Shown here piece after piece: positions 47,877 to 55,252 of a stretch of 64,000 nt of DNA. Source of the DNA: Chloroflexota bacterium (lineage in GTDB: Bacteria; Chloroflexota; Anaerolineae; JAAEKA01); assembly GCA_029558955.1 (NCBI GenBank), contig JAKQCW010000031.1, positions 1-64,000 on the forward strand, given 5' to 3'. The translations under genes and the position numbers were made by a program. A model generated the notes under the pieces. It ran no database searches and was not told the DNA's origin. It saw nothing but the letters and a program-made list of their open reading frames with translations. How positions within the stretch are numbered: position 1 is the first letter of the stretch; each line of letters starts with the position of its first letter.

Positions 47877-48620
47877 ATGGCAGACGGCCCATCACTGACC
47901 GCGGCTATCGCCGACAGCGTGCAGCAGAGCCCCCTCTTTCGCGAGCTGAGCGCGGCGCAGATCGGGGAGATGCTGCGCGCCGGCCGGCCGCGCAAGGTCG
48001 CGCGCGATGCCTTCCTCTTTCAACAGGGCGAGCCGGCCGCGGCGCTCTATCTGCTGTTGACCGGCCGAATGCGCATCCAGCAGGTGACGCCCGAAGGTCA
48101 ACAGGTGCTGCTGCGGGTCATCACCCCGGGCGAGATGTTCGGCGGCATCACGCTGTTGAAGGAGGCCCTTTTTCCCGCCTCGGCGCGGGCTGTTGAGGAA
48201 TGCACCGCGCTGGGCTGGGATTTGGATACCATGATCCAGTTGATGGAGCAACACCCACGGCTGGCGCTGAACGCGCTGGGCCTGCTGGCCGCCCGCCTGG
48301 AAACGCTGCAAGAACGCTACCGCGAGCTGGCCACGGAGCGGGTGGAACGCCGGGTGGCGCGCACGCTGCTGCGGCTAACCCGCCAGACAGGCCGCCGGGT
48401 CGCAGAAGGGGTGCTGATCGACTTCCCCCTCTCGCGCGAGGACCTGGCCGAGATGACCGGCGCCACTCTCTACACCGTCAGCCGCATTCTCAGCGGCTGG
48501 GAACGCCAGGGCCTGATCGAATCGGGTCGCCAGCGCATTCTCATCCGCCGCCCGCACGGGCTGGTCTCCATCGCCGAGGATCTGCCCACCGACCGGCCGC
48601 TGAAGGGGCCTGGTCAATAG
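47877..48620 (+). CDS. Crp/Fnr-family transcriptional regulator, probable NO/redox sensor
   Basis: 247 residues: a cyclic-nucleotide-binding-like beta-roll (FQQGEPAAALYLLLTGRMRI, about 20-130), a dimerisation helix and a winged HTH (SREDLAEMTGATLYTVSRIL). The N-terminus has no Cys cluster, so it is not an iron-sulfur FNR; DNR/NNR-type sensing is more likely. The recognition helix reads YTVSR, keeping the Ser and Arg of FNR's ExxSR but with Tyr for Glu. TTG-N8-CAA palindromes precede three nearby promoters, the target expected for this branch. Stop overlaps the convergent CBS gene by 7 bp. Confidence 0.88.
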   Translation: MADGPSLTAAIADSVQQSPLFRELSAAQIGEMLRAGRPRKVARDAFLFQQGEPAAALYLLLTGRMRIQQVTPEGQQVLLRVITPGEMFGGITLLKEALFPASARAVEECTALGWDLDTMIQLMEQHPRLALNALGLLAARLETLQERYRELATERVERRVARTLLRLTRQTGRRVAEGVLIDFPLSREDLAEMTGATLYTVSRILSGWERQGLIESGRQRILIRRPHGLVSIAEDLPTDRPLKGPGQ

Positions 48621-49081
48621 CTGGGAAATGCAGGATAGGAGGAGATCCCGGCGCCGGTGATGTACCGCTCCAGGTTGGTGATGGTGAATTCCTGTTGAGC
48701 GATGACCGCCTTGACCACATCGCCGATGGAGACGAGGCCGGCCAGATGGCCGGCGTCGTCCAGCACAGGCAGATGCCGGACACGTTTTTCGGTCATCAGC
48801 GCCATGCACTCCGCCACAGTCTGTCGGACGCGCACGCAGAGGACGCGCGCCGTCATGATCTCAGAGACCGCGGTCTCCCTGGAGCTCTTGCCCATCAGAA
48901 TCACCCTGCGTGCATAATCGCGCTCGGACATGATGCCCACCAGCCTGCCATCGTCCAGCACCAGCACCGCGCCGATGTTCTTCTCGGCCATCAGCTCGAG
49001 CGCCTCGAACACCGTCGCGTCTGGCCTGACGGCCCACACAGCAGTCCCTTTTTCCCGCAACAGGTCGCTAACCGTCATCAT
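48614..49081 (-). CDS. CBS-domain pair protein
   Basis: 155-residue protein consisting of two CBS motifs: VSDLLREKGTAVWAVRPDAT to GIMSERDYARRV, and VSEIMTARVLCVRVRQTVAE to GLVSIGDVVKAVI. CBS pairs bind adenosine nucleotides such as AMP, ATP or NAD and act as energy sensors. There is no catalytic partner domain. The tandem ATGs at 49081 and 49078 follow gaggaga. It converges with the crp/fnr-type gene and is divergent from the DUF1858 gene, placing it in the redox region. Confidence 0.9.
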   Translation of the reverse strand: MMTVSDLLREKGTAVWAVRPDATVFEALELMAEKNIGAVLVLDDGRLVGIMSERDYARRVILMGKSSRETAVSEIMTARVLCVRVRQTVAECMALMTEKRVRHLPVLDDAGHLAGLVSIGDVVKAVIAQQEFTITNLERYITGAGISSYPAFPSY

Positions 49082-49203
49082 GATCGTTTCTCCTCTTTGA
49101 GCATGAACGAACCAGCGCAACCGAAAGTTCAACTTGTGTGTTGATTGTACACTACATGTGCGCTCTCTCCAAACGACACGCAGCCGTCTAGATGGAGACT
49201 CCC

Positions 49204-49602: not shown

Positions 49603-50358
49603 TCAGGCCGGTCCAGCCGCCAGCAGCTCCCGTTCCAGCCGGATAGCCTTGGGGAAGAGGATGTTGTTCTCCAAATGAACATGCTTCTTGGTGGCGGCGT
49701 CGAACTGGGCCAACAGCGCATAGAGGGTGCGATAGGTGGTGCAGGCGTCGGCCGGCGGGGTATGGCCGCCGCTCAGGCGTGCGATCTCGGCCAGCTCATC
49801 GCCGGTGGCGTCGTGCTCCTCCTCCAGCGTGTCGATCAGATCCGCCAGCGTGCCGCTGGGCAGCGGCTTGGGCGCGGCCCCCTCCTCCTGGCTGCGGGCC
49901 AGACGCTTGATGTAGGGGAAGACCAGCAGTTCCTCCCGCTGGGTGTGCATGCCCATCTCCCCCTGCACGCGCGGCCAGAGCTCGGCGATGGCCACCGTCT
50001 CGGGGTGGGCCGCGCCATGGACCGCCGCCACGGTGGCCGCGTAGTCGGCGATCTGGGGCATGATCTGGCGGCCGGGGTTGTGGAACTGGTTGACGATGTA
50101 GTCGGCCAGAAAGTCCAGCGCCCATTGATCGTACTGCTCGCCGCCGTTGGCGGTGGCGGTCACCTGTCGGGTCTCAGCCAGCAGCGTCTCCAGGTCGACC
50201 CCCTGCTCGGCGCAGGCCTGGGCCAGCGGCTTGTCGCCGCCGCAGCAAAAGTCGATGCCGTTGCGCTCGAACAGCGCCGCCAGCCGGTAATCGGCCGTGA
50301 CCCAGGCGCCGACGCTTTGATCAGGGCTCAGGGTGGATACACGTTCTGATGTGGTCAT
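49603..50358 (-). CDS. ric: RIC family di-iron Fe-S cluster repair protein (ScdA/YtfE)
   Basis: 251-residue hemerythrin-like protein that restores iron-sulfur clusters damaged by nitric oxide or peroxide. The N-terminal ScdA domain (about 15-60) has VGAWVTADYRLAALFERNGIDFCCGGDKPL with the conserved CCGG. The C-terminal four-helix domain supplies di-iron ligands in DYIVNQFHNPGRQ, AAVHGAAHPE, MHTQREELLVFPYIK, EEEHDATGDELAEI and KKHVHLENNILFPKA. ATG 50358 has gagga upstream. A TTGCG-N4-CGCAA palindrome and -10 lie about 100 bp upstream, so control by the Crp/Fnr regulator is likely. Confidence 0.95.
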   Translation of the reverse strand: MTTSERVSTLSPDQSVGAWVTADYRLAALFERNGIDFCCGGDKPLAQACAEQGVDLETLLAETRQVTATANGGEQYDQWALDFLADYIVNQFHNPGRQIMPQIADYAATVAAVHGAAHPETVAIAELWPRVQGEMGMHTQREELLVFPYIKRLARSQEEGAAPKPLPSGTLADLIDTLEEEHDATGDELAEIARLSGGHTPPADACTTYRTLYALLAQFDAATKKHVHLENNILFPKAIRLERELLAAGPA

Positions 50359-50425: not shown

Positions 50426-50468
50426 AGCATACCCCAATGGCCGAGCGTCCGTCTTTGCGCTGGCGCAA
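50426..50468 (-). promoter_or_regulatory. Crp/Fnr-type class II promoter of the RIC gene
   Basis: Perfect palindrome TTGCG-CTGG-CGCAA (50455-50468) and, on the minus strand, -10 TATGCT (50431-50426). Predicted start near 50419, placing the palindrome centre at about -42. Confidence 0.7.
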
Positions 50469-50504
50469 GTCCCACCCTCCGCCTCCGCCGATCGCTGACA
50501 GGCG

Positions 50505-50789
50505 GCGGGCTCGGTCAGGAGACCGGCCCGAGCGGGGCAGAACGGCGGGCTCGGTCGGGAGACCGGCCCGAGCGGCGTGCGGCGTGAAATGGCGGGCTCG
50601 GTCGGGAGACCGGTCCGAGCGGGGCAAAACGGCGGGCTCGGTCAGGAGACCGGCCTGAGCGGCGAAAAACGGCTGGCTCGGTCAGGAGACCGGCCTGAGC
50701 GGGGCAAAACGGCGGGCTCGGTCGGGAGACCGGCCTGAGCGGCGTGCGGCGTGAAATGCGGGATCGGTCGGGAGACCGGCCCGAGCGGC
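50505..50789. repeat. Family B tandem array, seven copies
   Basis: Copies of GCTCGGTCnGGAGACCGG, continuing CCnGAGCGG, start near 50509, 50549, 50596, 50636, 50676, 50716 and 50762, spaced 40 or 46-47 bp. Each can fold because GCTCGG pairs with CCGAGC. The array fills the space between the two divergent Fnr-type promoters (gap 50359-50926). Confidence 0.9.
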
Positions 50790-50826
50790 GCTTTTCAGGT
50801 CAGATGCGTCTTTGCCAGCCGCGACC

Positions 50827-50868
50827 TTGCTTTGGCGCAAAGACAACCGCCGTTGGATGTCGTATCCT
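50827..50868 (+). promoter_or_regulatory. Crp/Fnr-type class II promoter of the FAD reductase operon
   Basis: TTGCT-TTGG-CGCAA (50827-50840) and -10 TATCCT (50863-50868). Predicted start near 50875 puts the site centre at -41.5. Confidence 0.7.
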
Positions 50869-50926
50869 GAGCTGGCGCTGTCGCCGGTTCGGGAACTGGC
50901 GCCAAAACAGAACCAAGGAGTGGACC

Positions 50927-52108
50927 ATGCAATCATACAAATACCTGATTGTCGGAGGCGGCATGACCGCCGATGCAGCGGTGCGCGGCATTCGCCAGCT
51001 CGACCCGGACGGCGCCATCGGTTTGATCGGCGCTGAGCCTGACATGCCCTACAGCCGGCCGCCGCTCTCCAAAGGCATGTGGAAGGGCCGCCCGCTGGAG
51101 AAGATCTGGCGCGGGACCGATCAGCTCAACGTCGCTTTTCACCTGGGGCGCACAGCGGTCGCGCTGGATCCAACGACGCAACGGGTGCGCGATGACCAGG
51201 GCGCGGAGTACGCCTACGACCGGCTGCTGCTGGCCACCGGCGGAACGCCCGTTCACCTGCCGTTCGGAGATGAGAGCATCATCTACTACCGCACGCTGCG
51301 CGACTATAGCCGTCTGCGCAGCTTGACGGAACAGGGGCAGCGTTTCCTGGTGATCGGCGCCGGTTTCATCGGTTCCGAGATTGCGGCCGCGCTGGCTATG
51401 CAGGGCAAACAGGTGACCATGGTTTTCCCGGAGAACCTGGTCGGCGAGCGGATCTTTCCACCTGATCTTGCGCAGTTCATCAGTGAGGCCTACAGCCAAG
51501 AAGGGGTGGCGCTGGTCCCTGGCGACAGAGCGGCCAGCGTCGAAAAGAGTCCGGAGGGCCTCACGGTCCAGACGGAAAACGGGCGCGTCTTCACCGTGGA
51601 TGGCGTGGTGGCGGGGCTTGGGATCCGCCCCAACGTCGAGCTGGCCCAGGCCGCGGGCTTGAGCGTCGGCAACGGCATCGTGGTCGATGAGCACCTGCGC
51701 ACCTCCGCGCCTCACGTCTACGCGGCCGGCGATGTGGCGCTCTTCCCCCACGCCACGCTGGGCAAGCTGATGCGCGTCGAACATGAGGACAACGCCCTGG
51801 TCATGGGCCGGCAGGCTGGCCGCAACATGGCCGGCGCGGACGAGCCCTACACCCACACGCCCTACTTCTACGCAGACCTGTTCCAGTACGGCTATGAGGC
51901 TGTCGGCCAACTGAGCAGCAAGATGCAGATGGTTGCAGACTGGCAGGAGCCGCATCGGCAGGGCGTGGTCTACTATCTCGACGGCGGCCGCGTGCGCGGC
52001 GTGCTGCTGTGGAACGTGTGGGACAAGGTCAAGGATGCGACGGCCCTGCTGGCTGAGACCGGCCCCTTCGAAGCAGCAGAGCTGATCGGCAGAATTCGCG
52101 CGGCATAG
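50927..52108 (+). CDS. FAD-dependent pyridine nucleotide-disulfide-type oxidoreductase
   Basis: 393-residue reductase with two Rossmann domains. FAD binding: YLIVGGGMTADAAVRGI and, near the C-terminus, HVYAAGDVALFPH. NAD(P) binding: FLVIGAGFIGSEIAAALAM. MPYSRPPLSKGMWKG resembles the ferredoxin/rubredoxin reductase and AIF-like group, and no CxxC redox pair is present at the disulfide position. It could pass electrons from NADH to a small redox partner, for example in NO detoxification as NorW does; that is inference. ATG 50927 follows aaggag by 6 nt. It is the first gene after a predicted Fnr-type promoter, and the DsbA-like gene follows by 16 nt. Confidence 0.87.
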   Translation: MQSYKYLIVGGGMTADAAVRGIRQLDPDGAIGLIGAEPDMPYSRPPLSKGMWKGRPLEKIWRGTDQLNVAFHLGRTAVALDPTTQRVRDDQGAEYAYDRLLLATGGTPVHLPFGDESIIYYRTLRDYSRLRSLTEQGQRFLVIGAGFIGSEIAAALAMQGKQVTMVFPENLVGERIFPPDLAQFISEAYSQEGVALVPGDRAASVEKSPEGLTVQTENGRVFTVDGVVAGLGIRPNVELAQAAGLSVGNGIVVDEHLRTSAPHVYAAGDVALFPHATLGKLMRVEHEDNALVMGRQAGRNMAGADEPYTHTPYFYADLFQYGYEAVGQLSSKMQMVADWQEPHRQGVVYYLDGGRVRGVLLWNVWDKVKDATALLAETGPFEAAELIGRIRAA

Positions 52109-52124
52109 CCAACAAGGAGTTCCA

Positions 52125-52796
52125 ATGACAACAAATATCCCCGAGCTGTGGGAATGGGCTGAGTATTATTGCCCCTGGTGCTACGTGGCGGCGGTTCGCC
52201 TGGCCAAGATCGCGCCCGAATACCGGGGGCGCGTTCGCCTGGTCACCCGGGCCTTTCCCCTGGAGGTCTACGGCGGAGGGCCGCCTGACCGGACGGAGCT
52301 GGAGCTGGAGATCTGGCTGGCGGCCTTGCAGGAGCCGGAGGCCACCTTCAAGCCCTTTGGCAGCCAATGGCCCACGACGACGCTGCCCGCCTTCGAGGCC
52401 GCCTGGTGCGCCTTCCAGCAGGGGGAAGAGGTGGGCCTGGACTTCGACCTGCGCATCCGCCGCGCCTTCTTCGCCGAAGCGCGCAACATCGGGCAGCGGG
52501 AGGTCATGCTGGAGCTGGCCCGCGAGGCTGGCCTCGACCTGGAGCGTTTCGCCCGCGACTTCGCCAGCGATGCACCACGCGCCGCGGTGCTGGAAGAGGG
52601 ACGGCTGGGCAAGGAACGCTACCATGTGCGCGGCACCCCGACCATCATGCTCAGCGACGGCACGCGCTTTCGTCACCCGCTGGCCTACCCGCAGATCAGC
52701 GATGGCCAGATCGTCTCGGTGGGAAAGCTGCCCTGCTGCGGCGAAGGCTGCTACGATGCGACCCGCGCCATGTTCGAGAGCGCACTCGCGACCTGA
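52125..52796 (+). CDS. DsbA-family (FrnE-like) thioredoxin-fold protein
   Basis: 223-residue thioredoxin-fold oxidoreductase with helical insertion. The active site is YYCPWCYVAAVRL (CPWC) at about residue 18, and the cis-Pro loop is VRGTPTIMLSDG. A second Cys group, GKLPCCGEGCYDA, near the C-terminus is unusual and could be a metal or redox site. There is no signal peptide, so it acts in the cytoplasm as FrnE-like proteins do. ATG 52125 has aaggag upstream; it is co-transcribed with the FAD reductase. Confidence 0.88.
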   Translation: MTTNIPELWEWAEYYCPWCYVAAVRLAKIAPEYRGRVRLVTRAFPLEVYGGGPPDRTELELEIWLAALQEPEATFKPFGSQWPTTTLPAFEAAWCAFQQGEEVGLDFDLRIRRAFFAEARNIGQREVMLELAREAGLDLERFARDFASDAPRAAVLEEGRLGKERYHVRGTPTIMLSDGTRFRHPLAYPQISDGQIVSVGKLPCCGEGCYDATRAMFESALAT

Positions 52797-52826
52797 GAGC
52801 TCCCAAGTCGCCGCACGTTCGGGCGC

Positions 52827-52868
52827 TTGATCTAGCGCAAAGACAGCGCGGCGCGCTTGCAGTATGCT
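52827..52868 (+). promoter_or_regulatory. Crp/Fnr-type class II promoter of the CopD-like operon
   Basis: TTGAT-CTAG-CGCAA (52827-52840) and -10 TATGCT (52863-52868). Predicted start at 52875 puts the site centre at -41.5, identical to the promoter at 50827-50868. Confidence 0.7.
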
Positions 52869-52991: not shown

Positions 52992-53972
52992 ATGAGCGCT
53001 GTTTCTTCCTCCGTGCCCGCCACGGCCTCCACGAACCTGCTGGACAAGTACATGCTGCCCAAGGTGGCGTTGACGGTCATCACCATCGCCTCCCTGGTGG
53101 GCACGTGGCTGACCATGACCACCCACGGCGCCGGCGCGCTGGGGCCGGTGGCCGTGCGTTGGCTCCACCTGATCAGCTTCGCCGCCCTGACCGGCGGCTT
53201 CATGTGGATGGGCCTGTTCATTCGCCCCGCTGAGAAGCCTGCCCAGGCGCCCTACTTCGCCAACTTCGCGACCGCCTCCGAGGCGCGCTTCCGGCGCATC
53301 GTTCAGGCCGCGCTGCCCCTCTTCCTGCTGACCGCGTTGCTGGACCTGCGCCGCTTCGGTGCATGGGGCGTCGGCTGGCTGGTCTGGCTCGAGGCTGCCC
53401 TGCTGATCGGGATCGGGCTGGCGGTTGGCTGGTTCGCCTATGGCCGCCGCGTCCAGGATCCCTACCGTCAACAGCCGCTGGCCCGCCTGGCGCTGGGGCT
53501 GCTGTTGCTGGACGCGCTGGTGCAGGCCGCCTTCGACGTGACGCTGGCCCAGGGCGGTCAACCGCTGCCGCTGGCCGTGCGCTGGCTGCACCTGGCCGCC
53601 TTTGGGCTCTGGTTCGGCGGCGCGATGTGGAACATCTTCATCGCCGTGCCCTCGGCCCGCGGCATGGTCTCGCTTCCGGTGGTGGTGGCCTCCAGCCAGC
53701 AGTTGGAGCGCTTTCGGGTGGCCGTGCGCATCATCCTGCCCACGTTGATCATCACCGGCCTGATCCAGGCCTACCCCTATGTCGGCCTCAACCCCAGCGC
53801 GCTGCTGACCTCGCCCTTTGGCCGGCTGATCTTGGTCAAGCTCCTGCTCATCGTCGTGTTGGTGGTCGTCTTCATCACCTGTCCCATGTGGCGGGCCTGC
53901 TCGCCCATCGCCGGCATGTGCAACCTGGACGATCTCTACACGCCCCAGAACAGCCCGGAGGCAAGCTCATGA
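52992..53972 (+). CDS. CopD-like polytopic membrane protein
   Basis: 326 residues with about eight membrane helices, e.g. VALTVITIASLVGTWLTM, LHLISFAALTGGFMWMGLFI, LHLAAFGLWFGGAMWNIFI and LILVKLLLIVVLVVVF. Conserved WLH motifs at two helix starts recall the heme- or copper-binding His of the CopD/YqhA-type superfamily. ATG 52992 has aaggtgag upstream. However, an in-frame ATG at 52875 coincides with the predicted transcription start and could give a leaderless version 39 residues longer; that extension has AT-richer third positions and no family features. It overlaps the TusA-like gene by 4 nt. Likely role: heme/copper handling or quinol-linked NO metabolism, unproven. Confidence 0.8.
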   Translation: MSAVSSSVPATASTNLLDKYMLPKVALTVITIASLVGTWLTMTTHGAGALGPVAVRWLHLISFAALTGGFMWMGLFIRPAEKPAQAPYFANFATASEARFRRIVQAALPLFLLTALLDLRRFGAWGVGWLVWLEAALLIGIGLAVGWFAYGRRVQDPYRQQPLARLALGLLLLDALVQAAFDVTLAQGGQPLPLAVRWLHLAAFGLWFGGAMWNIFIAVPSARGMVSLPVVVASSQQLERFRVAVRIILPTLIITGLIQAYPYVGLNPSALLTSPFGRLILVKLLLIVVLVVVFITCPMWRACSPIAGMCNLDDLYTPQNSPEASS

Positions 53973-54238
53973 CCACAACCGTGATCGATGCGCCGACCAA
54001 GACCCTGGACAATCGCGGCAGCAACTGCGCCGCCGGCTTCGTGCAACTGTTGGAGATGATGGAGAGCCTGGCCCCCGGCGAGACCCTGGCCATCCTCAGC
54101 ACCGACGCCGCCTCCCAGCGGGAGCTGCGGGAGTGGTCCAACCGCTCCGGCAACACCCTGGTGCAGGCCACCACCAACGGCCCCTTCTGGCGCCGCGAGT
54201 ACCACTACCTAATTCGCAAGGCAGCCGCCATCTCGTAA
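53969..54238 (+). CDS. TusA/SirA-like small protein
   Basis: 89-residue protein with the TusA-like beta-alpha-beta fold: TLDNRGSNCAAGFVQLLEMM, LAPGETLAILSTDAAS, and REYHYLIRKAA at the end. TusA sulfur carriers have CPxP at the first motif; here it reads NCAAG, keeping the Cys but losing both prolines, so sulfur transfer is plausible but altered. The ATG overlaps the CopD-like stop codon (ATGA), which fixes the start. Confidence 0.8.
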   Translation: MTTTVIDAPTKTLDNRGSNCAAGFVQLLEMMESLAPGETLAILSTDAASQRELREWSNRSGNTLVQATTNGPFWRREYHYLIRKAAAIS

Positions 54239-55059: not shown

Positions 55060-55236
55060 GCTCTGGCCGGTCTCCTGACCGAGCCAGCGCCATCGCCGCT
55101 CTGGCCGGTCTCCTGACCGAGCCAGCGCCGTGCCGCTCTGGCCAATCTCCCGACCAAGCCACCCCAGGTCGTCGCTCTGGCCAATCTCCTGACCGAGCCA
55201 GCTCCGTCGCCGCTCTGGCCGGTCTCCCGACCGAGC
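55060..55236. repeat. Family B array, five inverted copies
   Basis: 25-bp copies of GCTCTGGCCnnTCTCCTGAC and CGAGC start at 55060, 55098, 55135, 55174 and 55212. They are the reverse complement of the units at 50505-50789. The array begins 5 nt after the DUF488 stop. Confidence 0.88.
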
Positions 55237-55252
55237 CAGCCCGCGCGACACC

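Follow-up and report, generated by a model that had tools for sequence, protein, structure and literature searches.

Predicted operators of an NnrR-type Crp/Fnr regulator at three promoters of a Chloroflexota genome

Three promoters in a 64-kb stretch of Chloroflexota DNA (the window, by which we mean the whole stretch analysed) carry boxes that are very probably operators of the NnrR-type protein encoded at 47877–48620; this protein would act by class II activation, with NO as its most likely signal, and we give this reading a probability of roughly 0.84. The case is built on computed features, namely the boxes, their spacing, their conservation, their association with the regulator and the content of the target genes.

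An earlier note on this DNA had described three palindromes of the TTG-N8-CAA type, each with a TATnCT −10 element 29–30 bp from its centre. The palindromes, TTGCGCTGGCGCAA (50455–50468), TTGCTTTGGCGCAA (50827–50840) and TTGATCTAGCGCAA (52827–52840), are all present, and the −10 elements TATGCT of the RIC promoter (50426–50431, minus strand), TATCCT (50863–50868, plus strand) and TATGCT (52863–52868, plus strand) start 30, 29 and 29 bp past the centres of boxes 1, 2 and 3, respectively. The transcription starts predicted in the earlier note (50419, 50875 and 52875) and a box position of about −41.5 are consistent with the −10 positions. The TTG-N8-CAA sites are thus real, but the element that they share is longer: read along transcription, the predicted NnrR boxes TTGCGCCAGCGCAAAGAC (50451–50468, minus strand), TTGCTTTGGCGCAAAGAC (50827–50844, plus strand) and TTGATCTAGCGCAAAGAC (52827–52844, plus strand) have TTG-N5-GCGCAAAGAC in common, a pattern whose exact form occurs three times in the window, only at these promoters. 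As this pattern was derived from the three boxes themselves, the class-wide scan described below is the independent test. The bare TTG-N8-CAA form, found 14 times in the window versus 8.1 expected (about 1.7-fold; 2 of 100 shuffles reach 14), is near background and therefore weak evidence by itself, in contrast to the extended motif combined with the −10 spacing, which constitutes strong evidence. In boxes 2 and 3 the palindrome is imperfect, the left halves being TTGCT and TTGAT; the published NnrR consensus, ctTTGcgnnnncgCAAag (PMC1274295), fits box 1 in full and boxes 2 and 3 in their right halves.

Downstream of box 1, on the minus strand, lies the gene for a RIC/ScdA/YtfE-type di-iron protein (iron-sulfur cluster repair; 49603–50358), which contains the Pfam domains ScdA_N and Hemerythrin and scores 198.5 bits against NCBIfam TIGR03652, slightly below the cut-off of 204.7. 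The plus-strand genes behind box 2 form one operon and encode an FAD-dependent NAD(P)H ferredoxin/rubredoxin-reductase-type protein (50927–52108; Pyr_redox_2, HcaD/NorW-like) and a DsbA/FrnE-type thiol-disulfide protein (52125–52796; PF01323). Box 3 precedes the gene for a CopD-domain membrane protein (52992–53972, plus strand; PF05425), for which a start at ATG 52875 could give a longer product, but this leader is not kept open in relatives (G105); the gene for a TusA-type sulfurtransferase (53969–54238, plus strand; PF01206, 46.7 bits) overlaps the CopD gene and probably belongs to its operon. Between promoters 1 and 2 stand seven tandem copies (50500–50790) of a palindromic repeat of about 40 bp, GGCTCGGTCRGGAGACCGGCCYGAGC, with five further copies on the other strand at 55060–55237 and none expected by chance; a related repeat precedes the FAD-reductase gene in another genome (G001, L232).

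The candidate regulator, a Crp/Fnr-family protein of 247 residues (47877–48620, plus strand; PF00027 and PF13545), combines a cNMP-binding fold with an HTH_Crp_2 domain whose recognition helix reads GATLYTVSRILSGW. As the earlier note had observed, it lacks a Cys cluster: it contains a single Cys, C109, and the helix LYTVSR, whereas FNR has a four-Cys [4Fe-4S] cluster and a VETISR helix. Nor does it possess the residues by which CRP contacts cAMP (E72, R82 and S83) or the CRP helix residues R180/E181/R185, its pocket being GEMFGGI...FPASA. The protein is 44–59% identical to Crp/Fnr proteins encoded on rhizobial and Azospirillum plasmids next to nirK, nirV, nnrU, nnrS and DUF1858 genes, and its orthologue on pSymA of S. 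meliloti 1021 lies beside nirK, nirV and nnrS. In a maximum-likelihood tree, which is midpoint-rooted, settles no order inside the NnrR clade and leaves out a fragment on contig C202, all ten alphaproteobacterial NnrR proteins, that of S. meliloti among them, group with the window protein in one clade (99/95), with CRP, FNR and a host paralogue on contig C267 outside it. Nearly the whole clade has [HYF]TVSR as its recognition helix, whereas the paralogues from Chloroflexota have VETAIR; the ligand pocket is variable among clade members. Clade, motif and helix thus support the assignment of the predicted regulator to the NnrR type, not to DNR or FNR, and narrow the earlier label of a DNR/NNR/FNR-type system, of which the link to nitrogen oxides is retained. 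A gene for a CBS-domain protein (48614–49132) adjoins the regulator gene in the window, and such a gene also lies near the NnrR-type gene on Mesorhizobium and Desulfosarcina plasmids (L222, L228). Also common in the class is another clade of Crp/Fnr proteins from Chloroflexota, in which the helix is of the VETAIR type (L028–L044, and the C267 protein, L008).

NnrR is described from Alphaproteobacteria. The system reported here resembles NnrR of that group (Rhodobacter, Bradyrhizobium, Sinorhizobium) in protein clade and in box, ctTTGcgnnnncgCAAag, and shares with its regulon the targets nirK and DUF1858 (PMC6710368) and the neighbours nnrS, nirK, nirV and nnrU. Among the members of the NnrR regulon of B. 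diazoefficiens are nirK, with TTGTTGCAGCGCAA, and a gene for DUF1858 (29-fold) (PMC6710368), and S. meliloti NnrR is NO-specific, a reporter being raised about 15-fold with NO but not in an nnrR mutant (PMC3147055). The differences lie in the phylum, in the helix (YTVSR in the window versus HTVSR), in the −10 spacing, which is sharply fixed here, in the strong downstream CAAAGAC extension, and in the host targets, which comprise RIC, FAD reductase–DsbA, CopD–TusA, DUF1858–hemerythrin–cupin and flavodoxin, with NirK not found. DNR and NNR (Pseudomonas, Paracoccus) have in common with the window regulator the Crp/Fnr fold, a link to NO and a TTG-N8-CAA target; the published DNR box, however, is CTTGATnnnnATCAAG, as against a class consensus of TTGCGC-N2-GCGCAA, TTGAT is seen only in the left half of box 3, and P. 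aeruginosa DNR is only a distant PDB match. HcpR likewise belongs to the Crp/Fnr family and controls nitrosative-stress genes, among them dnrN in some genomes, but its published motif, TTGACnnnnGTCAA or CRP-like, is unlike the NnrR box found here, and no hcp was seen among the target clusters of the class. Some relatives that respond to NO, HcpR for example, are known to contain haem.

Next, 396 genomes from this class were scanned for the extended motif, with the reversed pattern as the control. TTGCGCNNGCGCAAAGA yielded 133 sites in 81 genomes versus fewer than 20 for the control. Relatives of the window regulator at E≤1e-50 occur in 83 of the 396 genomes: 47 genomes have both regulator and motif, 36 (of these 83) the regulator without the strict motif, 34 the motif without a regulator match at this threshold, and 279 neither (Fisher p=2.5e-17, uncorrected for phylogeny). 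Some of the 34, such as G045 and G008, have a diverged clade member. In 26 cases the site lies 10–153 bp past the 3′ end of the regulator gene, 25 times on the same strand, giving the order regulator, box, target. Beyond the class, 80 named loci with regulator relatives, from Chloroflexota, Alphaproteobacteria, Planctomycetota, Acidobacteriota, Armatimonadota and Deltaproteobacteria, were scanned; 64 have the motif within about 2.5 kb of the gene (97 sites versus 4 in the control). Co-occurrence, adjacency and the common clade with NnrR all back the earlier proposal that the Crp/Fnr gene near the boxes encodes their regulator.

The spacing is equally regular. A TANNNT hexamer starts at offset 29 in 58 of 131 distinct sites and at offset 30 in 10, with 1–2 sites at most other offsets; the class II geometry proposed earlier thus agrees with a sharp peak, 68 of the 131 sites having a −10 element that would place the box at the class II position, with transcription starts deduced from the −10 itself. 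Grouping the reading frames that follow 72 sites with a −10, with Pfam checks of representatives, gave the target clusters. They include DUF1858 (31 sites), a cytochrome-c-fused cupredoxin nitrite reductase (17), for which the name NirK rests on the cytochrome c and Cu-oxidase domains and on sequence, RIC/hemerythrin (16), NosZ (5), multihaem cytochromes, CopD-like proteins and cupins (4 each) and others. DUF1858, RIC/hemerythrin, NirK or NosZ lie downstream of 41 of 60 strict sites with a −10; for strict sites that have no −10 the figure is 4 of 47 (p=2e-10), and on the other side of the 60 it is 3. We infer that the same regulator and box control denitrification and NO-defence genes across the class and in other phyla. 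A 371-residue membrane protein considered as NnrS has no Pfam match and was given no name.

The individual boxes are conserved in relatives. Box 1 is identical in G003, a genome of the same genus, and in G034, and box 3 is kept before the CopD orthologue in G003, G034, G105 and G175, although the −10 of G034, some 27 bp from the centre, falls outside the usual range. CopD orthologues occur only in these four of 14 genomes tried, the ones whose regulator is closest. In G003, where the FAD reductase is absent, a box spaced like box 2 lies directly before the dsbA orthologue, suggesting that box 2 follows the dsbA operon; the FAD-reductase orthologue of G034 is without a box.

The regulon extends beyond the window. 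The earlier note had proposed a local regulon, and the three local promoters stand, but two more sites with the correct −10 spacing occur elsewhere in the host genome: TTGCGCCAGCGCAAAGAT at C309:7080, before genes for DUF1858, hemerythrin and cupin, and TTGTGCCAGCACAAAGAC at C302:7677, with the −10 TACACT, before a flavodoxin gene. A scan of this genome with up to 3 mismatches was swamped by chance (78 matches versus 91 in the reversed control). Matches were kept only if they combined no more than 2 mismatches with a −10; C91:18205 and C117:3173, which have no −10, were set aside. NirK (TIGR02376) gave only a sub-threshold match in the host assembly, which is 94% complete, so that the regulon looks like one of NO defence rather than denitrification. 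The NnrS profile PF05940 found no match in the host genome, but the control genomes were equally silent, so that this absence carries no weight. The flavodoxin gene is followed by a tandem array (L199, ~400–800) of a repeat, CCCGGCTGAAGCCTCGACKCCGCGCCATGA, of about 30 bp.

How would such a system work? Binding, the direction of control, the NO signal and the sensing chemistry are the parts that we infer. On sensing its inducer, most likely nitric oxide, the NnrR-type dimer would bind TTG(c/a)N4-GCGCAAAGAC, which, with its centre near −41.5, overlaps the −35 region, and would recruit RNA polymerase, thereby activating sigma-70-type promoters with a −10 located 29–30 bp downstream of the centre. 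The activated genes would repair or bypass NO damage: RIC would repair Fe-S clusters, hemerythrin would bind or move NO or oxygen and flavodoxin would replace damaged ferredoxin, while the two thiol/sulfur/membrane operons, FAD reductase–DsbA and CopD–TusA, would be activated as well.

Genes of the nitrosative response include those for RIC, hemerythrin and DUF1858. A box conserved in spacing cannot tell activation by NO from activation by another signal, and the boxes might bind the regulator in response to oxygen, redox state or another nitrogen oxide instead; we regard this as unlikely. The variable ligand pocket of the NnrR clade, the disulfide and sulfur-transfer proteins among the window targets and the failure to find NirK in the host would fit such a signal, but the nitrosative-response targets point to NO, as does the NO specificity of S. 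meliloti NnrR, a member of the same clade (PMC3147055), and the regulator is without both the Fe-S Cys cluster and the cAMP residues of CRP. Of the earlier alternative 'NO or redox', a nitrogen-oxide role is thus backed by the targets and by homology to the S. meliloti protein, and redox state is left without support.

That another Crp/Fnr paralogue, on contig C267 or C202, activates the boxes is highly improbable. The host genome does encode three HTH_Crp_2 proteins above the family cut-off, but the C267 protein, with its VETAIR helix, sits in another clade, and across genomes the sites track the NnrR-type gene and adjoin it. Chance combinations of TTG-N8-CAA with AT-rich hexamers, to which the slight excess of the bare form in the window would be no obstacle, are disfavoured and seem almost negligible as an explanation, given the extended motif, the fixed −10 spacing, the target content and the retention of box 3 in G003, G034, G105 and G175.

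We therefore retain control by the NnrR-type protein as the preferred reading. The system is of a known kind, in a group for which we found no description: a literature search on NnrR with Chloroflexi and on Chloroflexota nirK regulation found no such regulon described, and a paper on Chloroflexi nitrite reductases does not mention Crp. What makes it notable is the taxonomic reach and the sharp, testable promoter grammar. Tentatively, and with somewhat less than even confidence, we suggest that the NnrR module (regulator, box, DUF1858/hemerythrin) is an ancient unit spread across phyla, which some non-denitrifying Chloroflexota turned into a regulon purely for NO defence, with FAD reductase–DsbA and CopD–TusA as new members for thiol and sulfur transfer. 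The near-perfect grammar predicts co-induced genes of uncultured Chloroflexota, such as those for cytochrome-c-fused NirK, NosZ, hemerythrins and DUF1858, and a class-wide NnrR regulon is relevant to how NO and N2O are turned over in sediments and wastewater; DUF1858, CopD–TusA and FAD reductase–DsbA gain a testable role in the NO response.

Among 128 boxed promoters, ATG is enriched 6, 9 and 20 nt past the −10 (9, 14 and 13 sites, respectively, over a background of about 2–3), so that some NnrR targets, for example dsbA in G003 (L236), look leaderless.
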